Shown here one piece after another: positions 9,783-24,925 of a stretch of 38,808 nt of DNA. The DNA comes from a virus, in IMG/VR virus record IMGVR_UViG_3300009285_001880, positions 1 through 38,808 of that record; one strand, given 5' to 3'. A program made the translations under genes and the position numbers. How positions within the stretch are numbered: position 1 is the first letter of the stretch; each line of letters begins with the position of its first letter. The notes beneath the pieces were generated by a model. The model saw only the letters and a list, made by a program, of their open reading frames with translations, did no database searches and was not told the origin of the DNA.

Positions 9783-9976
9783 CCGCCATCATCTTCGTCT
9801 GCGCCTTCTTGGCCGGCTCGGCTTCCACCGCCGTCGGCATCCTGCTCGGAGCCTATCTTTTCAAGGCCCACCCCGAAATCCTGGACCGAGTGAAACAGCA
9901 CCTCCCTCGGAGGAAACTCAAAATCCTAGATATCTCCCACGAGGAAGCCGTTAAAGACTTGAACGACACCCTGTGA
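9779..9976 (+). CDS. Small membrane protein (65 aa)
   Basis: One N-terminal membrane helix (about residues 3-28, AIIFVCAFLAGSASTAVGILLGAYLF) is followed by a basic cytoplasmic tail (RRKLKILDISHEEAVKDL). It overlaps both neighbours by 4 bases (ATGA, GTGA). Its placement directly ahead of groES is unusual. Function unknown. Confidence 0.65.
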   Translation: MTAIIFVCAFLAGSASTAVGILLGAYLFKAHPEILDRVKQHLPRRKLKILDISHEEAVKDLNDTL

Positions 9977-10221
9977 AACCCCTGTTCAACTACGTCCTGC
10001 TCAAGTCCGTGGATCTCAAGAGCGAATCTGGACTCGTGGCCCCCGACACCGCCGCCAAAGAGCGTCCAGTCGAAGGCGAGGTCATCGAGATAGGTCCGGA
10101 CGTGAGCTGCCTCAAACCCGGCGACAAGGTGATTTTCAAGAAATACGCCCCCGACGAGTTCACCAAAGACGGAAACGATTATCTCCTCATCAGCCAAGAA
10201 GATATCATGGCGGTCCTATGA
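9973..10221 (+). CDS. groES: Phage GroES-like co-chaperonin
   Basis: 82 aa (bacterial GroES is about 97), GTG start overlapping the previous stop. The GroES pattern is clear: PLFNYVLLKS start, mobile loop with SGLVAPD (bacterial GGIVLTG), EGEVIEIGP, PGDKVIFKKY, and LLISQEDIMAVL at the end. Compared with E. coli GroES, about nine residues are missing between IGP and PGD, where the roof beta-hairpin lies. T4 gp31 also lacks that roof. It should cap the GroEL ring encoded next to it and may enlarge the folding chamber for capsid protein. Confidence 0.9.
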   Translation: MKPLFNYVLLKSVDLKSESGLVAPDTAAKERPVEGEVIEIGPDVSCLKPGDKVIFKKYAPDEFTKDGNDYLLISQEDIMAVL

Positions 10222-11759
10222 GAGTGCTCCACGGGAAAGAGGCCAGGGAAAAACTGAAGAAGGGCATGGACGTCATGGCCGATGCGGTCAAGAGCACCCT
10301 CGGTCCCAATGGCAAGAACGTCATCTTCTCCTCCGGTGGCGTCCCGGTCGTCACCAAAGACGGCGTGACGGTGGCTCGGGAGGTCATGCTCAAGGACGAG
10401 GGCGAGTACGTGGCGGTCAAGATCATGCGCCAAGCGGCCATGAAGACCAACCAAAACGTCGGGGACGGCACCACGACCTCCACCGTCTTGGCTCAAGCCA
10501 TCGTCACGCGCGGCCTCGACGCCCTCCAGGACAAGTCCCTGAACGTCCACGCTCTCCGCAAAGGAATCCAGGACTGCGCCGAGGAGATCAAGACCGCCCT
10601 CAAGGAACAGTCTCGAAGCGTCGATGGCGACTTGGAGAAAGTCGCGACGATTTCCGCCAACAACGACCCCATCATCGGCAAACACGTCGCCGATTGCGTG
10701 GAGAAAGCCGGTCCCGACGGTCTCGTGGTCGTCGAGGAATCCAAAAGTCTCGACACCCTCATCGACGAAGTGAACGGTATGGAACTGGAGAGGGGATACG
10801 TCGCCCCCTACATGGCCAACAACGAGCGTCTGGAGTGCGTGCTTCATAACCCCCTCGTGGCCGTTTCGGACAAGAAACTGTCCCTCTCCTCCGAAGTCCT
10901 CCCCCTCATGGAACTGCTGGTCAAGAACAAGCAGACCCGTGAACTCCTGCTCATCTGCGATGACATCGAAGGGGACGCCCTGGCTACGGCTTTCGTCAAC
11001 AAGCGGCAGGGCCAGTTCAACCTCGTGGTCGTCCGCGCCCCCGGAAGCCCAGGCGAGAAGAAAGAAATCCTAAGGGATATCGCTGAATACCTAGATACCG
11101 AAGTGATTTCCGAGACCGCCGGCCTCAAGCTCTCGACCTACGAGAATTACGGCACCGCAGAGAAAGTCATCATCTTCAAGGACAAGACCCTCATCATCGG
11201 GGGGAAGGGTGAGACTGAAAGGCGCATCGCGGACCTCAAGATCGAACTCGAAAACAAGGAACACGACCACGAAAAGGAGAAAATCAAGGCCCGCATCGCC
11301 AAGCTCCTCGGGAAGGTCATCGTCATCAAGGTCGGGGGTTCCACCGACTCGGAGATGCGAGAGAAGAAATACCTCTACGAGGACGCGGTCGGAGCGACCA
11401 AAGCGGCCCTCCGTTCCGGAGTCATCGCAGGCGGCGGAATCCCGCTCTACCACATCTCGGAGAAAATCAAGCCCAAAGATAGGGGGGCCGAAATCCTGCT
11501 CAAGGCGATCCAAGAGCCTTTCAAGACCATCATCAGGAACTCCGGACAGGACACCGAACGTGTCCTCAAGCACCTCCCGAAGGACGGAGGCTACGACGCC
11601 AAGACCGATACGTTCGTGGACGACATGCTGGCTCACGGCATCCTGGACCCCCTCGAAGTCACCCAGAAAGCCCTCGACAACGCGGTATCGGTAGCCACCA
11701 CCATCCTGACGACCGACTGCCTGATGTATGCCGAGCCCGACAAGAAAGACCCAAGCTGA
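10218..11759 (+). CDS. groEL: Phage GroEL-like chaperonin
   Basis: 513 aa. Nucleotide-binding TLGPNGKNV (27-35), GDGTTT (82-87), apical-domain segments EVLPLMELL and LLICDDIEGDALA, and AGGG (404-407) match GroEL. The catalytic Asp (E. coli D398) corresponds to D389 in YEDAVGATKAAL. The Gly-Gly-Met tail of bacterial GroEL is absent; the protein ends in a charged DKKDPS. It is coupled to groES by a 4-base overlap and lies directly upstream of the terminase genes. Carriage of both rings by a genome of about 37 kb is rare. It probably folds capsid or other virion proteins. Confidence 0.95.
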   Translation: MRVLHGKEAREKLKKGMDVMADAVKSTLGPNGKNVIFSSGGVPVVTKDGVTVAREVMLKDEGEYVAVKIMRQAAMKTNQNVGDGTTTSTVLAQAIVTRGLDALQDKSLNVHALRKGIQDCAEEIKTALKEQSRSVDGDLEKVATISANNDPIIGKHVADCVEKAGPDGLVVVEESKSLDTLIDEVNGMELERGYVAPYMANNERLECVLHNPLVAVSDKKLSLSSEVLPLMELLVKNKQTRELLLICDDIEGDALATAFVNKRQGQFNLVVVRAPGSPGEKKEILRDIAEYLDTEVISETAGLKLSTYENYGTAEKVIIFKDKTLIIGGKGETERRIADLKIELENKEHDHEKEKIKARIAKLLGKVIVIKVGGSTDSEMREKKYLYEDAVGATKAALRSGVIAGGGIPLYHISEKIKPKDRGAEILLKAIQEPFKTIIRNSGQDTERVLKHLPKDGGYDAKTDTFVDDMLAHGILDPLEVTQKALDNAVSVATTILTTDCLMYAEPDKKDPS

Positions 11760-12099
11760 AAAAGATTCGACCTGCAAGAAGGGCGGTTTCTGCCTCTGGA
11801 TGACCGACGGAAGGTACGCCGACGCGACGGTAGAACGATGCCTCAAGTGCGGACGTAAAGCCATCTGGAACAAGGTGGACGGCCGCATCGACAACCAGAA
11901 GTACCTCCGTTACCACCTGACGGACTTCGCCCAGCCCTTCGGACCGACCCATAACTTCTTCGAGCGAGCCTACGGGAAAGGGAAGGTCAGACTGTGGGAG
12001 GACCGCATGAAGGAACGTCTAGGTCGCCAGAACCTCTGGGACGACACCGAACGCGAGGCCCAGTACGCCATCAAGATGATGAAACGAACCAGCTTCTAG
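11728..12099 (+). CDS. Hypothetical zinc-binding protein (123 aa)
   Basis: Four cysteines in CKKGGFC (16-22) and CLKCG (38-42) could bind a metal ion. The C-terminal half is basic and aromatic (HNFFERAYGKGKVRLWEDRMKERLGRQNLW). The start lies inside the last 32 bases of groEL, so the genes are coupled. No family is recognised. Position between chaperonin and small terminase suggests a packaging or assembly role, but this is inference. Confidence 0.65.
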   Translation: MPSPTRKTQAEKDSTCKKGGFCLWMTDGRYADATVERCLKCGRKAIWNKVDGRIDNQKYLRYHLTDFAQPFGPTHNFFERAYGKGKVRLWEDRMKERLGRQNLWDDTEREAQYAIKMMKRTSF

Positions 12100-12101
12100 A
12101 T

Positions 12102-12503
12102 ATGCCGACCGTCCGTGAGGACAAACTGGCGGACGTCATCATCGAGAACGCGACATCCGACAGGGGAATGACGGCAAAACAGATGCTTGTTAAAGCAGGC
12201 TATGATACCACCACGGCAGAAGCCTCTCCGGGCCGAGTGATGAAGCAGGACGGAGTACGCGAAGCCCTCATCGCCAAAGGCTTTACCGTAGACAGAGCCG
12301 ATGAGGTCGTGACCGAAATCCTCAACACTGGAGAGAACCAGCACAGGCTCAAGGCTGCCGACATGATCTACGAAAGGCACGGTGCCAAGGCTCCCCAAAA
12401 GACCGTGAGCCTCAACCTCACCGCCGACATGAAGGACTTCGAGCAGTTCGACGAGATGAGCAAGAAGTACGACGAGGAGATGAAACGTAAGATGCGGGAG
12501 TGA
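12102..12503 (+). CDS. terS: Small terminase subunit (probable)
   Basis: 133 aa from ATG at 12102 (TAGATATG context). The N-terminal part has a helix-turn-helix-like layout (TAKQMLVKAGYDTTTAEASPG, then VREALIAKGF). A following helical region (RLKAADMIYERHGAKAPQK) resembles the oligomerisation and C-terminal region of TerS-type proteins that recognise pac/cos DNA. It is placed directly before the large subunit and overlaps it by 4 bases. A longer frame from 11994 exists but overlaps the zinc protein and is not preferred. Confidence 0.75.
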   Translation: MPTVREDKLADVIIENATSDRGMTAKQMLVKAGYDTTTAEASPGRVMKQDGVREALIAKGFTVDRADEVVTEILNTGENQHRLKAADMIYERHGAKAPQKTVSLNLTADMKDFEQFDEMSKKYDEEMKRKMRE

Positions 12504-14089
12504 GACTTTCCGACGTCAATCCCGCCGCGTGGATCGTCGAGAACCGCATCCGAGTATCGAGCGGCGTTCCCTTCGACTTCAAGAACCACCTGTTCTGGTA
12601 CGACGTCCTCACGGACCTCTCGCCCCATCAGGCGTGGCTCAAAGCCGCGCAGGGAGGCGGAACGGAAATCGCCATCCTCAAGGCTCTCTATCTCTGCGAT
12701 CGGAGGAAGATGGACTGTATCTACACGATGCCGACCGCCTCCGACATCAACACTACGGTCGGAACGAGGCTCAACCGCCTCATCGGGCTCAACCCCACTC
12801 TCGCGGCTCTCGTCAAGAACAAGGATTCCGTCGAGCAAAAACAGGTGGGGGACAACCTCATCCACTTCAGAGGGACTTGGGTCGAACGTGCCGCAATTTC
12901 CGTCCCGGCCGACGTCCTCATCCATGACGAGGAGGACCGGAGCAACCAAGACGTGCTCGGAACCTACGCCTCCCGCCTCCAGCACTCCAAGTACAAGTGG
13001 GACTGGCATTTCTCCAACCCCAGTTTTCCAGGTCACGGGGTAGATAAGTTCTGGAGGAAATCCGACCAGAAGCATTGGTTCATCAAGTGTCCCAAGTGCT
13101 CGCTCGACCAGTACCTCTCATGGCCTGAATCCGTGAGCGTGGAGCGCAAGGAGTTCGTCTGTAAGGGTTGCGCCGCGGCGCTTTCGTCTGACGACAGGCG
13201 CCGAGGGCGCTGGGTCAGGAAGTGGGAAGACATGGAATACTCCGGCTACTGGATTTCAGCCCTGATGTACCCGTGGCTCACCGCCCAGTACATCTGCGAG
13301 CAGTTCGAGAACCGCACGCGGGATTTCTTCTTCAACTTCGTCCTCGGACTCCCTTACGTCGCGGAGGGTTCCTCCGTGTCCAAGGACACCATCCTCCGCA
13401 ACTGTCAGCCCGGCCTCATCGTTGACCAGAGGAGGCCGGTGATCGGCGTGGACGTCGGCATCATCTGCCACTACGTCATCGGGACGAGAGAGGGACTTTT
13501 CTACCACGGCAAGACCGAGAAATCCGAGGAAATCGAAGGCCTGCTCCATAAGTGGAAGGACGCCATCATGGTCATCGACGCCGGCCCCGACATCTTCTTC
13601 GTCAGGCAACTCAAGGAAAAATACCCCGGCAGGGTCTTCCTCTGCTCCTTCTCCCGCTCCAAACCCAAGGAGGGCATCATCAGATGGGGGACGGGAGAGG
13701 AGTCCGGCAGAGTCATCGTGGACCGCTCCAGAGCTATCCAGCTGGTCTCGGACGAGTTTTCAGCCCGTCGTGTCCCCATCCAAGGGACTGCCCACGACTG
13801 GGAGCCGTTCGCCGAGCACGCCTCGGTGATGTACCGGGTCCAAGAACTGGACACGGCCGGGAACCCCGTCTACTCATGGGAATCCTCCAGTCCCATGAAC
13901 CACTGGTTCCTCGCCTCCGTCTACTGGCGCGTAGGGATGGACAGGTTCGGCGGTGACGTGGCTTTCATCCGAAGCTCCGAGGACTTCAGGGTTCCTGTCG
14001 GCCAGCCCGTCACCCTGGGCAAGATGCCAGCCAAGACCGCCGTTGACGTCCAGCGGATAGGCACGGACGAATCCGACCTATGGAGATGA
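12500..14089 (+). CDS. terL: Large terminase subunit (GpA-like)
   Basis: 529 aa, GTG start. The ATPase has a deviant Walker A, KAAQGGGTEI (48-57), as in lambda GpA-like terminases with K before the loop rather than GKT. Walker B is VLIHDEED (139-146). A zinc knuckle CPKC...CKGC (197-200, 221-224) precedes the RNase H-like nuclease with GVDVG (316-320) and VIDAGPD (358-364). It packages DNA into proheads. The GpA relationship suggests cohesive or defined ends, but this cannot be settled here. Confidence 0.9.
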   Translation: MRLSDVNPAAWIVENRIRVSSGVPFDFKNHLFWYDVLTDLSPHQAWLKAAQGGGTEIAILKALYLCDRRKMDCIYTMPTASDINTTVGTRLNRLIGLNPTLAALVKNKDSVEQKQVGDNLIHFRGTWVERAAISVPADVLIHDEEDRSNQDVLGTYASRLQHSKYKWDWHFSNPSFPGHGVDKFWRKSDQKHWFIKCPKCSLDQYLSWPESVSVERKEFVCKGCAAALSSDDRRRGRWVRKWEDMEYSGYWISALMYPWLTAQYICEQFENRTRDFFFNFVLGLPYVAEGSSVSKDTILRNCQPGLIVDQRRPVIGVDVGIICHYVIGTREGLFYHGKTEKSEEIEGLLHKWKDAIMVIDAGPDIFFVRQLKEKYPGRVFLCSFSRSKPKEGIIRWGTGEESGRVIVDRSRAIQLVSDEFSARRVPIQGTAHDWEPFAEHASVMYRVQELDTAGNPVYSWESSSPMNHWFLASVYWRVGMDRFGGDVAFIRSSEDFRVPVGQPVTLGKMPAKTAVDVQRIGTDESDLWR

Positions 14090-14388: not shown

Positions 14389-16140
14389 ATGGACCCAGTA
14401 ACCGGGTACCGCTCACTCTACGCGGACAAGAACAAAGCCCACCCCTCGGCCCAGACCGAGGGTGCTTCGGGTCCGGAAATCGACGAGCTTTCCCTCGAAA
14501 TGGACGACAAGGAGCTGATTTCCCTCAAGAAAGAGTGGATGTCTCTCTGGAAAGAGAAATCAGGCGACTTGGACAAGAAACGCAAGCGCAATCTCGAATA
14601 TTGGGAAGGCAAGCGTTTCGTCTGGATGGAAGACGAGACCGAGAGGAAGCCACTGGCCGATAACATCGTCTTCGAGGCCGTCGAGTCGTTCCTGCCGATC
14701 GTGACCAAGAAGACCCCGGAGCCGATGGTGTGGTCCGACAACACCCCCGAAGGCCAATCACTTTCTCGTGACGTCCAGCGGATGCTCGAATATCTTAGCG
14801 ACGTCTTGCGGATGAGGCTGGTGGTCAAACAGGCCACGAGGCACTGGTCCCTCTCCTACCTCGGATGCGTGAAGCTCGGCTGGAACGCCATCGAGGACGA
14901 AATCGCCATCCTCCCCGTCCACCCCCAAGACCTCATCCTCGATGCCAGAGGCACCATCGAGAACGGAAAGTATACAGGCAAGTACGTCGGGGAGTACCGG
15001 TGCGACACCCTGGCTAACATGCTCCAGCGGTTCCCTGAAAAAAAAGATTATCTCAACGAGAAATACGGGAAGAAGGGGACGGAAATCAAGTTCATCGAGT
15101 GGTGGACCGATGACTACGTCTTCTGGACGGTCGATAACGAGGTCTTGGGCAAGAGCAAGAACCCTCACTGGAACTACCCCGGCGAGACGACATCGGTGGA
15201 CGACTACGGGGAAGAAATCAGCAAGGCGACCCCGGGCTACAACCACTTCAAGGTTCCCAAAGCCCCTTACGTCTTCCTCTCGGTCTTCAACACCGGCAAG
15301 AACCCCTACGACGACACCAGCCTGGTGGAGCAGATACTCCGGCTTCAGGACATGGTCAACAAGCGCCTGAAGCAGATCGACAAGAACGCCGACAACACCA
15401 ATTCAGGACTGGCCCTCTCCGACGCCTTCACTGACGAGGAGGCCTCGCAAGCCGCCAGAGCCTTCCGGCGCGGCGACTCCATCCGAGTACCCAGAGGCGA
15501 CGTGAACCAGGCGGTCATGCGGACCACGGGACCGGCCCTTCCCAATTTCGTCTACGAATCCCTGCTGGATTATCGGGCTCGCGCCCTCAACATCTTCGGG
15601 GTCTCGGGACTCACGGCTCAAGGCCTTAGAGAGACCGAGACCGTCCGAGGAAAAATCCTGGTCAAGGCGCAAGACGCAGACCGCATGAGCTACGTCGTGG
15701 ACCACCTGGAGCAGTTCTCGGACCAAATCTACAACTGGATGGTCCAACTCATCGCCGTCTACTACGACGAACCCCATACCGCCGCGATCCTCGGCAAGGA
15801 GAAATCCCAGGAGTTCATCACCCTGACCAATTCCGATCTCGACAGAAAACTGGTGGTCTCGGTGAAGGAAGGTTCCCTCATCCCCCGCGATTCCCTGACC
15901 CAGCGGAACGAGGCCATCGACCTGTTCACGGCAGGCGCCCTCTCTCCTATCGAGCTGTTCGAGAAACTGGACTTCCCCAACCCCAGGGAATCTGCCGCCA
16001 ATCTCGTGATGTGGCAGACGAACCCTCAAGGGGCGGTCGGGCTGCCGGCTCCAGCCCCGACGCCCGCGATGCCTCCGACCGAGACAGAGCAGGTCGCGGC
16101 GGAGACGGAGCAAGCCTTCCAGCAGATTCCCGCCATCTAA
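14389..16140 (+). CDS. Portal protein
   Basis: 583 aa. A helical N-terminus (WMSLWKEKSGDLDKKRKRNLEYWEG) and the core with HPQDLILDARGT, PYVFLSVFNTGKNPYD, EQILRLQDMVNKRLKQIDKNAD and LNIFGVSGLTAQG match portal proteins of tailed phages. The portal is the dodecameric ring at one capsid vertex through which DNA passes. The start has no Shine-Dalgarno and follows a terminator-like hairpin. The C-terminus is Pro/Ala/Glu-rich, common in portals. Confidence 0.9.
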   Translation: MDPVTGYRSLYADKNKAHPSAQTEGASGPEIDELSLEMDDKELISLKKEWMSLWKEKSGDLDKKRKRNLEYWEGKRFVWMEDETERKPLADNIVFEAVESFLPIVTKKTPEPMVWSDNTPEGQSLSRDVQRMLEYLSDVLRMRLVVKQATRHWSLSYLGCVKLGWNAIEDEIAILPVHPQDLILDARGTIENGKYTGKYVGEYRCDTLANMLQRFPEKKDYLNEKYGKKGTEIKFIEWWTDDYVFWTVDNEVLGKSKNPHWNYPGETTSVDDYGEEISKATPGYNHFKVPKAPYVFLSVFNTGKNPYDDTSLVEQILRLQDMVNKRLKQIDKNADNTNSGLALSDAFTDEEASQAARAFRRGDSIRVPRGDVNQAVMRTTGPALPNFVYESLLDYRARALNIFGVSGLTAQGLRETETVRGKILVKAQDADRMSYVVDHLEQFSDQIYNWMVQLIAVYYDEPHTAAILGKEKSQEFITLTNSDLDRKLVVSVKEGSLIPRDSLTQRNEAIDLFTAGALSPIELFEKLDFPNPRESAANLVMWQTNPQGAVGLPAPAPTPAMPPTETEQVAAETEQAFQQIPAI

Positions 16141-16340: not shown

Positions 16341-17120
16341 ATGTCAGCGACCATGACGGGCATCCCCACCGACTCCCGACCTATCGAGGAGGAAGTGAAA
16401 ACTGCGGATGAACAGGCCGAGGAAACCGAGAAATCGGAGACCGACCCTGCGGAATCGTCACCCGAAAAGAAGTCAGAGGAAGCGGCCCCGTCCGATGCCG
16501 ATGAGAATACGGACGTCAATATCCCTCTGAACAAGGACAAGCGCTTCAAGGAAATCATCAAGGATCGGGATGAGGCACGCGCCCAACTCTCCGAGCTGAT
16601 GGAATGGAAGCGCCAAAGCGAGTCCGCGCTCAAAACGCAGGCTCAAACCCAGGACATCCCCCAGTGGTTCCGTGAGATTTACGGAGACGACCCCAACGTG
16701 TGGAAGGTGATGCAGGCCCAGTTCTCCGAAATCCGCAAGCAGGCGGCCGACGAAGCGTATCAACGCCTCGAAAGCCAGAAGCAGGCGGAGGTCAAGCAGC
16801 TGGAAGAAGCCAAGAAGTTCGTGGATTCCCAATTCGAGGCGCTCAAGGAAGAAGGCAAGACCTTCGACAAGAACGCCGTCATCGACACGGCGCTCAAGCT
16901 CAAGCTGTTCGACGACAACGGGAACTACAACCTCCGCGCCGCCTACGAAGTCTGGTCCGCGAAGCAGTCGAGACCCCAGAACACCGTCAAGAAGCGCATC
17001 GCTTCCGAATCGGTCAGGGGCTCGAAGGGCGACGCCAAACAGGAAGGCCACACCCTCTCCGAACTCCGGAAGCTCGGAGGATTCCGAGGCTTCAATAAGT
17101 ATCTTGAGAATAACGTATGA
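16341..17120 (+). CDS. Scaffolding protein
   Basis: 259 aa. The first 60 residues are acidic and disordered (many Glu, Asp, Ser, Pro). A long helical middle follows (RFKEIIKDRDEARAQLSELMEWKRQ, then a run of Gln/Glu/Lys around 130-170), and a basic C-terminal helix region (TLSELRKLGGFRGFNKYLENNV) could bind coat protein. Length, composition and position directly ahead of the capsid gene are those of prohead scaffolds. It overlaps the capsid start by 4 bases (ATGA). Confidence 0.85.
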   Translation: MSATMTGIPTDSRPIEEEVKTADEQAEETEKSETDPAESSPEKKSEEAAPSDADENTDVNIPLNKDKRFKEIIKDRDEARAQLSELMEWKRQSESALKTQAQTQDIPQWFREIYGDDPNVWKVMQAQFSEIRKQAADEAYQRLESQKQAEVKQLEEAKKFVDSQFEALKEEGKTFDKNAVIDTALKLKLFDDNGNYNLRAAYEVWSAKQSRPQNTVKKRIASESVRGSKGDAKQEGHTLSELRKLGGFRGFNKYLENNV

Positions 17121-18154
17121 TTACTCTCGGCAATCGCGTCCAGACGACGACCCGCGACTTCCTGATGCCCATCCTCGTGGATACGGTGCTTCAGGGAAAC
17201 AAGTTCGCTGGTTCCATCGTCCGCAAAGCCAAGAAATGGTCCGGCAAGCGGATGCAAGTCCCGGTGAAGTACGCCAAGAACTCGACGGCCACCTCGTGGT
17301 CCGGGTTCGACCAGCTCTCCACCTCGGCGTCCGATAACCGCGTCCTGATGAACTTCGACCCGGGGTTCGTCAGCATCACGACCGCCCTTCCCCTCGACGA
17401 AATCTCGACCTCCCTCAAGTCCGGCGCGGAGGAGGCGGTCCTGAACCTCGTCAGGCTTCAGATCGAATCCGACACCGACGACCTCGCCGACTCCGTCGGC
17501 ACCCAGTTCTGGGGCGACGGCACTGGCAACTCCAACAAGGATTTGCAGGGCATCGGAGCCATCGTGGACGACGGCACTTCGGTCGCCACCTTCGGCGGCC
17601 TGTCCCGCTCGACCTATCCGACCCTCGATGCCGAGGTCACGGCTTCGGGCGGCACGCTCACTCTCGACAAGATGACCACGCTCTACAACGCCATCTCGAA
17701 CGGCGGCGGCGTGAACCCGACTGTGGGCTACGCCATCGACGCCGTCCATGCGCTGTACGAGAAGCTTCTGGTCTCCCAGGAACGCTACGTCCTCACGCAG
17801 GAAATGGCGAAAAAGGGCTTCACGGCCGGCACGGGCGCGAAGGAACTCGCCTTCAAGGGCATCCCGATGACCCGCGACCGCAAGGCCACTGCGCAGACCA
17901 TGTTCATGTGGGACGAGCAGTTCATCGACTGGTACGCGCTCGAAGTCGCTGACGGCGAACCCATCAAGATGAACGACGACATCGAGGGCGACGACTACAC
18001 CCGCTCCGAGGTCGAAGGTTACGGCTTCCGCTGGTCCGGTTGGGTCAAGCCCACGAACCAGATGGCCTGGATCGGCTTCACTACGCTCGCAGGTCAGCTC
18101 ATCGGACGTAACCCGCTCCGCAGCGGCAAGCTCACGGGAGTGACCGGCGTGTAA
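17117..18154 (+). CDS. Major capsid protein
   Basis: 345 aa. The order DFLMPILVDTVLQGNKFAGS, GKRMQVPVKYAKNS, DEISTSLKSGAEEAVLNLV, QFWGDGTGNSNKDLQG and GLSRSTYPTL is typical of HK97-fold major capsid proteins of tailed phages. It assembles on the scaffold to form the shell. It is the best candidate client of the phage GroEL/GroES. The gene is followed by 25 bp without a terminator. Confidence 0.9.
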   Translation: MITLGNRVQTTTRDFLMPILVDTVLQGNKFAGSIVRKAKKWSGKRMQVPVKYAKNSTATSWSGFDQLSTSASDNRVLMNFDPGFVSITTALPLDEISTSLKSGAEEAVLNLVRLQIESDTDDLADSVGTQFWGDGTGNSNKDLQGIGAIVDDGTSVATFGGLSRSTYPTLDAEVTASGGTLTLDKMTTLYNAISNGGGVNPTVGYAIDAVHALYEKLLVSQERYVLTQEMAKKGFTAGTGAKELAFKGIPMTRDRKATAQTMFMWDEQFIDWYALEVADGEPIKMNDDIEGDDYTRSEVEGYGFRWSGWVKPTNQMAWIGFTTLAGQLIGRNPLRSGKLTGVTGV

Positions 18155-21726: not shown

Positions 21727-22956
21727 ATGGCCGACGCCAAACGAGACGCGAACCGAGTGACGACTTTGATGGGCGTGTCCGACGCGGACGGCACGACTCT
21801 TTTGCCTGTCCGTATCGATCCTGTGACCAACCGCATCCTCGCATCCGCCACGGGAGGCGTGACCGGCTACACCGGTTACACAGGTCCGACCGGCTACACT
21901 GGTCCCGGTAATTTCACCGGCCCCACCGGCTATACAGGTCCCATCGGCCCAACTGGCCCCACAGGCTATACCGGACCTACGGGCTACACCGGAGCCGGTA
22001 ATTTCACCGGCTACACCGGTCCGATCGGCCCTACGGGCTACACTGGCTACACCGGCCCCGACGGCACCCCAGGAGGCCCCACAGGTCCCACAGGTTATAC
22101 CGGCCCACAAGGAGCTGGCCCTACTGGCTATACGGGATATACGGGCTATACAGGTCCAATCGGCCCTACAGGCCCTACCGGCTACACCGGCTACACGGGT
22201 GCCGGTAACTTCACCGGCTACACGGGTTACACCGGCTACACCGGCCCCATCGGTCCGATCGGTCCTACAGGCTACACGGGCTATACGGGTCCAGGCAATT
22301 TCACCGGTTACACCGGTTACACGGGTCCGCAAGGACCGACCGGCTACACCGGTTACACCGGTCCGATCGGCTCCACCGGTCCGACGGGTTACACAGGCTA
22401 TACCGGACCAACTAGTGGAGCTACAGCGGTAACTTTGATTCCTTCCCCAAATTATCCTGTCTTGAGCGCGTTGACGACCACCACGTATGACACGAATACA
22501 CAAGGCAAGGTCGGCCAATTCGTTATCCCCTTGGCGATCACGGTCAACAAAATCTCAATCAGGACCGTCACGGTAACTGCTGATTCGACGATCGACTTGA
22601 CCCTCTACTCCGAGGATGGCCAAACACAGATATTCTCCGTAACTACGGGCACGATTACGGCTACGACCGACAACAACAAGGTCATAACGACGGCCGTTTC
22701 TGCGGTTAGTGTTCCCGCAGGCGTCTATTACTTGCTATCGAACAGCAACGGCACATCTAACACGCAACTCCTGACGTATACCAACGGATACGTCGGCGGA
22801 ATCGACGGAACTGGTAGCCTGTTGACTGACGTAACGAGTGAACCTGATTTACAAGGACAAATCGCAATTACAGCTTCGACTCCTCCTGCCACTTTGACTC
22901 CCACTACAATAGCGGGATCAGACAACAAAGGGATTTATTTCAGACTCGACAACTAG
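21727..22956 (+). CDS. Collagen-like fibre protein
   Basis: 409 aa. Residues 1-43 are an anchor unit ([20 protein letters not shown]). Residues 44-230 are Gly-X-Y triplets dominated by GYT and GPT, with threonine in most Y positions. The triplet register is broken four times by GPG-NFT or GAG-NFT, where Asn replaces Gly. A non-repetitive beta-rich C-terminal domain (232-409) with [28 protein letters not shown] and YYLLSNSNG is probably the trimerising, target-binding head. The protein is likely a head or tail fibre. Confidence 0.9.
21860..22412 (+). repeat. Imperfect tandem repeats encoding the collagen-like shaft
   Basis: Nine-base units of the GGC-TAC-ACC / GGT-CCG-ACC kind recur throughout, with varied synonymous codons. 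The variation suggests that the repeat is old or selected against slippage. The repeats also generate long spurious reading frames on both strands. Confidence 0.85.
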
Positions 22957-22983: not shown

Positions 22984-23070
22984 ATGCCTACTGGATACCG
23001 CAATAAAACAGGCGCAAACCCCTTCAAAGGAAAAAAGAAAAATGTATGCTTAATTGGTCAACCGTTTTAA
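22984..23070 (+). CDS. Micro-protein (28 aa), tentative
   Basis: ATG in a TGATATG context as used by real genes here, TAA at 23068-23070. The product begins MPTGYRNKTGANPFKG and is basic. It overlaps the start of the glycosyltransferase by 25 bases and may serve in translational coupling. Confidence 0.35.
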   Translation: MPTGYRNKTGANPFKGKKKNVCLIGQPF

Positions 23071-23606
23071 TAGCCCGTAACGAAGAAAAGACGCTGCCCA
23101 GGCTGATGGCGTCGCTTTCGGAGTTCCAGGCGAAGGGAGGCGAAGTGGTTCTGGTGGATACCGGCTCGACCGACGGGACCGCGAAGGTCGCCACGGAACT
23201 CGGCTGCCGCGTCGTCGAGGTCGGAGACAGGTTCCGAGTAGCGATCGACGACAAGACGGCGGAGGCCATCAACGCCAAGTTCGTGGTGGATGGGGAGGAA
23301 CCCGTGGTCCAAGCCGGAGACTCCCTGTTCGACTATGCCTCGGCCCGTAACTTCGCCGCGTCGCTCGCCCTGAACGACATGGTAGCCATGCCCGACTGCG
23401 ACGAGGCATATACCAGGCTAGACCTCGATGCGATTCAGGCCGCCGTCGCCGAAAGCGGTGCCGACCGATTCGTGTATGAATACGTTTTCAGCCACGATGA
23501 ACACGGCAATGAGGGAGTCGCGTTCAAACATAGCAAGTTCTACGACCGCAGAAAACACGAATGGCGCGGTGTAGTTCACGAGTGCCTTTTCCCTAGAATC
23601 AACTGA
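23046..23606 (+). CDS. Glycosyltransferase family 2 domain protein
   Basis: 186 aa. The GT-A fold N-terminus is clear: VLIARNEEKTLPRLM (7-21), VDTGSTDGT (37-45), and a DCD metal-binding motif (117-119) in MPDCDEAY. The end (WRGVVHECLFPRIN) is where full-length relatives continue into a TPR-like region. That region lies in the next gene, so the original gene looks split. It probably transfers a sugar to a virion or host glycan; the neighbouring Thr-rich collagen-like fibre is a plausible acceptor. Confidence 0.85.
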   Translation: MLNWSTVLIARNEEKTLPRLMASLSEFQAKGGEVVLVDTGSTDGTAKVATELGCRVVEVGDRFRVAIDDKTAEAINAKFVVDGEEPVVQAGDSLFDYASARNFAASLALNDMVAMPDCDEAYTRLDLDAIQAAVAESGADRFVYEYVFSHDEHGNEGVAFKHSKFYDRRKHEWRGVVHECLFPRIN

Positions 23607-23607
23607 T

Positions 23608-23676
23608 ATGGCTCCTCGAAGCGAACTCGGTAAACAACACATGCGAGAGGCGTGGCTTAAACTCGCATATGTTTGA
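23608..23676 (+). CDS. Micro-protein (22 aa) between glycosyltransferase genes, tentative
   Basis: ATG in a TGATATG junction directly after the first glycosyltransferase stop. The product MAPRSELGKQHMREAWLKLA ends within the start of the next gene. It could be a coupling peptide, or scar sequence where a fused gene was split. Confidence 0.3.
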   Translation: MAPRSELGKQHMREAWLKLAYV

Positions 23677-24925
23677 GAAATATCTGGGTCCTGACGTCAT
23701 CAAGCTCGAACACTGGCAGAACCATGACACGAACCGCTCTGGCTATCTTAGGGGGCTTGCTCTGGATTGCTTCAGCCATCCTGACAACGACCGCAACTGC
23801 CATTATCTGGGTCGTGAGCTCCTGTGGACGGGTCGTCCGAAGTCCGCTCTCAAGGAACTGGAGCGTCACGTCAAGATGGACAAGTGGCGGCCGGAAAATA
23901 GCCAGTCCCTCGTCTTCATGGGCGACGCCTTCCTCGCGCTCGGTGACGAGCGTTCCGCCGTCGCTTCTTGGCACGAAGCCTACGCCGTCGAGAGCGGAAG
24001 AAGGGAACCGTTCATCCGACTGGCTGAACACGCCATGAGAAAGCAGGACTGGCCGCGCGCCGAAGCCTACGCTTCAGCCGCCCTCACCATTCCACAATCG
24101 GGTTTCTACGCTGACGATGCCTCGAACTATCGGGAGAAGCCGCACGAAATCCTTTACACCGCCCTGTGGTATCAGGGGAAACCGGAGGCCCACGACCACT
24201 TCAGGAAGTGCCTCGGCTACCTGCCGAACCATCCGAAATATCTCCATGATCGCCAGTTCTTCCCTCTGCCCGAAGGCGTGTCGCCGGTCCTCGACAGGCG
24301 CATGGGGTCGTGGGAACTACCCACGGTATCCATCCTCGTCCCGACCCTCGGCCGGCCCGAAGGCCTGAAACGCTGCCTTGATTCCATCGAAATACTCAAC
24401 TACCCCAAGAACCTCATTGAGGTCTGGTTTCGGGAGGACGAGCCACGTTTGGGCGTCCCCAAGAGAGTCAGGCAAGGGGTGGAGGAGACGAGGGGGGAAT
24501 ACTTGGTCTTCGCCGCCAATGACACGGAGTTCGAGCCCGATACGGTCCTGCGAGCCGTCATGGCTTCGAGGAAAGAGAAGAAACGCCTAGTTGCCTTCAA
24601 TACGGGCGAGTTGTATCCCGACAAAGGGAACATCTGCGAGCACTTCCTCATCAAGAGGGACTTGCTCCCGGAGATCGGTGGCGACATCTTCGACACCGAG
24701 TTCCATCATGTCGGGGTCGATAACCTTCTCTGGGCCAAGTGCGAGGTACTGGGAGAAGCCACGAGGTGCGAGGAAGCCAAGCTGAAGCACCACCACTTCA
24801 CCAGGTCTCCGGTGAAGATGGACGAGGTATACGAACTTGGATACTCGAAAGCCGACCAGGACAGGCAACTGCTCAAGAACAAGTTAGCGAAGCTCTTGTC
24901 GGGAATGTCACCAGCCCTCGTATGA
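23669..24925 (+). CDS. TPR-like / glycosyltransferase fusion protein
   Basis: 418 aa. Residues 25-180 carry helical repeats of TPR type (SLVFMGDAFLALGDERSAVASWHEAY). They contain NDRNCHYLGRELLWTGRPKSAL, familiar from the linker behind bacterial GT2 domains. Residues 219-400 form a second GT2-like domain (VSILVPTLGRPEGLKRCLDSIE, then FAANDTEFEPD). It probably works with the preceding GT2 protein on the same glycan. It overlaps the zinc micro-protein downstream by 4 bases. Confidence 0.75.
   Translation: MFEKYLGPDVIKLEHWQNHDTNRSGYLRGLALDCFSHPDNDRNCHYLGRELLWTGRPKSALKELERHVKMDKWRPENSQSLVFMGDAFLALGDERSAVASWHEAYAVESGRREPFIRLAEHAMRKQDWPRAEAYASAALTIPQSGFYADDASNYREKPHEILYTALWYQGKPEAHDHFRKCLGYLPNHPKYLHDRQFFPLPEGVSPVLDRRMGSWELPTVSILVPTLGRPEGLKRCLDSIEILNYPKNLIEVWFREDEPRLGVPKRVRQGVEETRGEYLVFAANDTEFEPDTVLRAVMASRKEKKRLVAFNTGELYPDKGNICEHFLIKRDLLPEIGGDIFDTEFHHVGVDNLLWAKCEVLGEATRCEEAKLKHHHFTRSPVKMDEVYELGYSKADQDRQLLKNKLAKLLSGMSPALV

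Follow-up and report, generated by a model that had tools for sequence, protein, structure and literature searches.

The window, by which we mean the whole stretch of DNA analysed, was a virus record of 38,808 bases that carried a chaperonin pair on the + strand, upstream of the terminase genes. The groES gene (9973..10221, +; GTG start, TGA stop) encoded a co-chaperonin of 82 aa that matched Pfam Cpn10 with an E-value of 2.6e-17. The groEL gene (10218..11759, +; ATG start, TGA stop) encoded a protein of 513 aa that matched Pfam Cpn60_TCP1 (E 1.9e-52) and the PHROG annotation chaperonin GroEL (E 9.3e-134). The two genes overlapped by the four bases ATGA at 10218-10221, and the 5' end of groES overlapped the preceding gene by GTGA (9973-9976). 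A complete GroES-GroEL pair with 4-base coupling had been claimed in an earlier note on this DNA; both points held, the Pfam and PHROG matches being far beyond chance. The pair had also been placed directly ahead of the terminase genes, and it did lie upstream of them, but one small gene intervened.

The intervening zinc-ribbon-like gene of 123 residues (11728..12099, +) was labelled from the C..C pairs in its consensus; it had HMM matches in 36 relatives as well as in the window, and no Pfam family was found for it above the cut-off. It was followed by a putative small terminase or packaging gene (12102..12503, +; the open reading frame was listed from 11994), which was named by position only, had tblastn relatives at the corresponding position of other loci and gave no PHROG match. 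The genes of the terminase large subunit (TerL; 12500..14089, +; PHROG 675, 8.3e-92; Pfam GpA_ATPase, 1.2e-17), of a P22-like portal protein (14389..16140, +; PHROG 156, 4.3e-12; Pfam P22_portal, 6.7e-6, slightly below the cut-off) and of a major capsid protein of 345 aa, a candidate client of the pair (17117..18154, +; PHROG 9953 major head protein, 2.5e-39), were located further downstream. Other genes of the window were assigned to PrimPol, tail-fibre, glycosyltransferase and peptidase functions; a collagen-repeat tail-fibre gene and then two glycosyltransferase-family genes were observed at 21727-22956 and 23046-24925. Rfam and tRNA searches of the window gave no match. The description of the phage as small was supported in part: no terminal repeat was found in the 38,808-base record, and two relatives of 38,840 and 38,956 bases were deposited as complete circular genomes.

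The roof of GroES was measured as the interval of residues from the conserved Gly before the roof to the Gly in the GD motif that comes next. This interval was 8 residues in the window GroES (PDVSCLKP), 10 in T4 gp31 and 17 in Salmonella GroES, in agreement with the earlier estimate that about nine residues were missing at the roof of the 82-residue protein. An AlphaFold2 model of the window GroES had a mean pLDDT of 83.7, with values of 53-63 in the mobile-loop blocks. No strand was present at residues 41-51 of this model, and the roof hairpin is thus predicted to be absent. The model matched Cpn10 folds with Z up to 12.3 (1wnr) and was similar to gp31 in its GroEL complex (2cgt_O; Z 10.3, rmsd 1.5 over 64 residues). 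The window GroES therefore belonged with Cpn10 both by sequence family (Pfam 2.6e-17) and by its beta-barrel fold (Z 12.3). The mobile loop SGLVAPD was kept, as had been stated. By alignment, its length was close to that of the Salmonella GroES loop and shorter than that of gp31; the tripeptide after the Gly was L-V-A, the third position being mostly I, V or L in bacteria.

Roof intervals of 8 residues or less were found in none of 79 bacterial GroES proteins encoded beside the closest GTDB GroELs (12 in 45, mostly Bacteroidota; 10 in one; 16-18 in 33) and in none of 29 Patescibacteria GroES proteins (16-17 in 27 and 12 in 2). Among 29 distinct GroES proteins of the phage lineage defined by TerL, the interval was 6-8 in 20, 10-12 in 7 and 17-20 in 2 (L014 and L058); this count omits a thirtieth protein (L048), which was cut at the contig start and whose interval reads 26. 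Since 20 of the 29 lineage proteins and none of the 108 bacterial ones had an interval of 8 or less, the short roof was considered a trait of the lineage. It is no general rule for viral GroES, the interval being 16-20 in all 62 GroES proteins encoded near GroEL in general viral contigs. An interval of 8 residues was also present in the lids of elemo phage and Bacteroides phage SJC03, and the lid of a crAss-like phage was short-roofed as well, by a weaker alignment. Lids without a roof are known from cells too: the available text of PMC4242682 describes two such Cpn10 proteins of Arabidopsis chloroplasts. It was also observed that the interval of 12 in Bacteroidota GroES (bacterial loci L117-L196) was about five residues shorter than the 16-17 of other bacteria. 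Because cells have roofless (chloroplast) or shorter-roofed (Bacteroidota) lids, the loss of the roof alone is no proof of a capsid-folding role.

The model of the window GroEL had a pLDDT of 89.1 and matched GroEL 4ki8 with a Z of 44.6 and an rmsd of 3.5 over 503 residues; by the Pfam match (1.9e-52) and the three-domain fold (Z 44.6) the protein was assigned to the group I chaperonins. Residue mapping showed that D48, D83 and D389 were the equivalents of E. coli D52, D87 and D398, and the catalytic Asp noted previously, D389, thus corresponded to D398. At E. coli positions 199, 203, 204, 234, 237, 259, 263 and 264 of the apical groove the window GroEL carried Y, Y, M, L, M, L, F and V, respectively. 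All eight positions checked were hydrophobic or aromatic, and a groove able to bind substrate and lid appears to be preserved. The GGM tail was lacking, as had been reported, and the protein ended in ...AEPDKKDPS; such a tail was present in none of 21 lineage GroELs and in 75 of 82 bacterial rows. C-terminal GGM repeats are common in group I chaperonins, but membership does not require them. These results support a genuine group I chaperonin pair in which the catalytic and lid-binding residues are kept. Two GroELs of the lineage (L053:2425-3912 and L058:1041-2513) had Asn at the D398 position and non-standard residues in the nucleotide loop; judged from these residues, their ATPase may be slow or inactive.

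A TerL scan of IMG/VR yielded 80 relatives, in which HMM searches for GroES and GroEL were then run. Matches were obtained in 36 relatives for GroES and in 24 for GroEL, HMM detection within the lineage being partly circular. After the removal of near copies, GroES and/or GroEL were present in 32 of 62 relatives, a figure in which absence from short contigs is uninformative. The Pfam Cpn10 cut-off was passed by three of the four lineage GroES proteins tested, with L059 (0.017) below it. When 15 distinct relatives with at least 5 kb upstream of TerL were considered, GroES was found in 11, GroEL in 12 and either of them in 13. The other two, L069 and L081, had neither gene anywhere in their records (26.3 and 38.8 kb), and the pair is therefore dispensable in the wider group. 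These counts support the conclusion that a phage-encoded pair in the packaging and head block is a widespread trait of the lineage.

The window GroEL was at best 47% identical to a cellular protein (Patescibacteria) and at best 44% identical among 80 GTDB GroEL loci, and its branch was long (1.88). A recent host transfer, which by the earlier note would have spoken against its reading, was rejected on these GroEL identities. Chaperonin genes are common in bacteria, all 14 control genomes having them, and a recently acquired host gene or a chimeric assembly might by chance have brought such genes into the record without any phage function. This was judged very improbable, because many independent contigs carried the same genes in the same position and the GroEL was as divergent as described.

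In a quick tree, one side held all 17 lineage GroELs and the rows of 2 capsid relatives, along with the 21 rows of Patescibacteria and a single long branch of crAss-like type (SH-aLRT 96). A careful tree, from which five long-branch phage rows were left out, gave a support of 86/92 for the grouping on the Patescibacteria side; a tree that held the 14 main lineage rows, the window included, with other bacteria was better by 3.11 log units (AU p 0.569). The GroEL group of L078/L070/L065/L114 was located inside Patescibacteria (99/90) and was the only lineage group placed there firmly. The GroELs of Vibrio and Bacteroides phages, the hosts of which are known, grouped with the phyla of their hosts in the same tree.

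In the phylum of Candidatus Uhrbacteria (L120), 5 genomes out of 379 had full-length TerL matches, of 257-284 bits, and there was one weak match in addition. Matches in three other phyla were far weaker: the best reached 37 bits in that of a Bacteroidota genome (1 match among 375 genomes), 46 bits in that of a Vibrio genome (29 among 378) and 130 bits in that of a Ruminococcaceae genome (9 among 378). The five Patescibacteria TerL regions contained no capsid gene, GroES or GroEL of the window type and hence back the host assignment only indirectly. These genomes (L319-L323) had a full-length TerL homologue, and two of them a weak portal match; the regions are perhaps a separate prophage group. 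One capsid relative was recorded as a TM7 phage. Several clues, namely this record, the TerL homologues, the GroEL subgroup nested there and the grouping of other phage GroELs with the phyla of their known hosts, suggest that the hosts are probably Patescibacteria. No paper on GroES or GroEL in Patescibacteria phages appeared in the literature collection searched, and the terms groEL, groES and chaperon had zero occurrences in the available text of PMC13059738, PMC10746230, PMC7137472 and PMC12911398.

The inferred host bacteria carried a GroEL of their own in 85 of 96 sampled genomes. This would be consistent with the pair being a general host-supporting moron, that is, an extra chaperonin for host and phage folding under stress or after host shut-off, with no dedicated client. 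General substrates could bind to such a protein, given the best cellular GroEL identity of 47% and the conserved groove residues. However, the pair adjoined the packaging genes, its position was kept across divergent relatives, and its roof was lost, unlike in bacterial GroES; we consider a moron of this kind improbable.

The order GroES - zinc-ribbon - TerL was constant across the relatives, and a zinc-ribbon-like gene followed GroES in most of them (L002, L050, L061 and others). The place of GroEL shifted. In the window it was located between GroES and the zinc-ribbon gene; it preceded GroES in L015 and the L050 group (L035/L039/L040/L041/L044/L050/L057/L059), followed the zinc-ribbon gene in L012, L049, L053, L055 and L058, and lay beyond TerL in L038. 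On the TerL tree, a minimum of five changes of arrangement was needed. Since the order of the three genes was fixed while the place of GroEL shifted, we infer that the lid gene is probably old and that GroEL was captured later, perhaps repeatedly. The relative nearest to the window by TerL (L002, 54%) had GroES, but its 31.6-kb record contained no GroEL; GroES-only records were mostly incomplete at one end. The window GroEL was 29-36% identical to lineage GroELs whose TerLs were 38-48% identical, but reached 47% with Patescibacteria GroEL. When only the three best-supported absences of GroEL were used on the TerL tree, 2 changes of presence sufficed. A single origin of all lineage GroELs was not rejected (AU p 0.233), and GroEL may thus have been present early and moved around.

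The lid tripeptide was fully hydrophobic in 10 of 12 GroES proteins without GroEL in the locus examined, against only 3 of 17 where GroEL was present (Fisher p 0.0007); on the tree this contrast comprised only 5 independent pairs, too few to confirm drift. A broader history is put forward only tentatively. It describes a widespread lineage of ~39-kb phages, probably on Patescibacteria, with a roofless GroES as a near-core gene of the packaging block, in which GroEL was captured several times at different positions and the private chaperonin came to have a lid-barrel contact that drifted from that of the host. We regard this history as possible but somewhat doubtful.

It was proposed that the window pair is a roofless heptameric GroES lid acting on its own GroEL and folding late proteins of the phage, GroES being the older gene and GroEL the later addition; the probability of this reading was estimated at about 0.55. 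The heptameric GroES without roof loops would cap the GroEL barrel from the same phage, and the clients would be late proteins of neighbouring genes, such as terminase, portal, capsid or tail proteins. At first, the roofless GroES beside TerL would have been paired with host GroEL, as T4 gp31 is. The later addition of GroEL, at different places in different sub-lineages, would have resulted in a self-sufficient machine in the window phage. By analogy with gp31, the lid may leave the dome open, and part of the chain could then protrude.

According to the available text of PMC6318259, the roof is absent from gp31 and is not needed for its lid function, the chamber is 8% larger, the client gp23 is about 56 kDa, and the longer mobile loop of gp31 is also credited for the larger chamber. 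The earlier statement that gp31 is likewise roofless, with a slightly larger chamber, agreed with this source and with the gp31 roof interval of 10. By the same comparison the pair had been interpreted as a dedicated folding machine for the capsid or another large virion protein. The lost roof, the kept group I residues, the position in the packaging and head block, the wide occurrence in the lineage and the want of a recent host copy spoke for that interpretation, and the size of the capsid protein and the mobile loop, which was not lengthened as in gp31, spoke against it.

In its strict form, with a chamber widened by the loss of the roof to take the major capsid protein, just as gp31 serves gp23, this interpretation is unlikely. 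The pair does sit in the head block and has lost the roof as gp31 has. In the public phage collection only two records had a full-length relative of the capsid protein, and in both of them GroEL was immediately preceded by a small gene that resembled GroES in position and, weakly, in sequence; a single-protein scan for capsid relatives, and one of viral_contigs for GroEL relatives, found none. However, the Pfam Cpn10 match of that small gene was weak in one record (0.0031) and absent in the other, and L069 and L081 had related capsid proteins yet no chaperonin. Moreover, the window capsid protein of 345 aa (roughly 38 kDa by length) is well below the ~56 kDa of T4 gp23, and by its size it does not need a larger chamber. 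Alternative candidate clients were TerL, the portal protein and the tail proteins of 529-646 residues. A role in capsid folding is plausible but not favoured over late proteins in general.

If the proposed folding of late proteins by a phage-owned lid and barrel is true, a small virus has moved from borrowing the folding machine of the host, with only a lid of its own, to owning all of it, and the lineage may record the transition from a lid alone to lid and barrel. Its many natural pairs would also allow the roles of the GGM tail and of the GroES roof to be examined. Should Patescibacteria prove to be the hosts, this would suggest that phages of such small and reduced cells supply folding capacity themselves.

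Phage GroES-GroEL pairs are already known, and the window pair is a further variant, with a roofless lid beside packaging genes. Such pairs were reportedly described among virioplankton chaperonins by Marine et al. in 2017, a study cited in PMC7185714. Like gp31, the window lid is a GroES-fold phage protein without roof loops (8 and 10 residues, respectively). It differs in that gp31 has 111 aa with extra segments and a longer mobile loop and uses host GroEL, whereas the window lid, with 82 aa and a loop of ordinary length, is accompanied by a GroEL of the phage itself. Adjacent GroES and GroEL genes are also present in Flavobacterium phages immuto and elemo and in Bacteroides phage SJC03, but these genomes are larger (60-180 kb), and in the stretches inspected the terminase was not next to the chaperonins. 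Among the matches listed, the window GroEL was at most 42% identical to phage GroELs.

The two public capsid relatives, TM7 phage DolZOral124_53_65 and Caudoviricetes sp. MW202566, share with the window the capsid family, a size of about 39 kb and GroEL with a small gene in the GroES position. Their capsid proteins were 28-32% identical to that of the window, and their lid genes were hardly recognisable as Cpn10 and lacked the short roof interval. The chaperonins of phages EL, OBP and AR9 are phage-encoded GroEL relatives too, the EL protein matching over 84% of the window GroEL query with 28% identity. These single-ring or lidless chaperonins belong to giant phages and act with no co-chaperonin, according to the available text of PMC9598537; in the window, by contrast, a lid gene is coupled to GroEL. 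A parallel arrangement was observed in crAss-like phage cr111_1 (L281:4454-6220), in which GroEL and an annotated 10-kDa chaperonin, with no Pfam match and an 8-residue roof interval, were located close upstream of the terminase.
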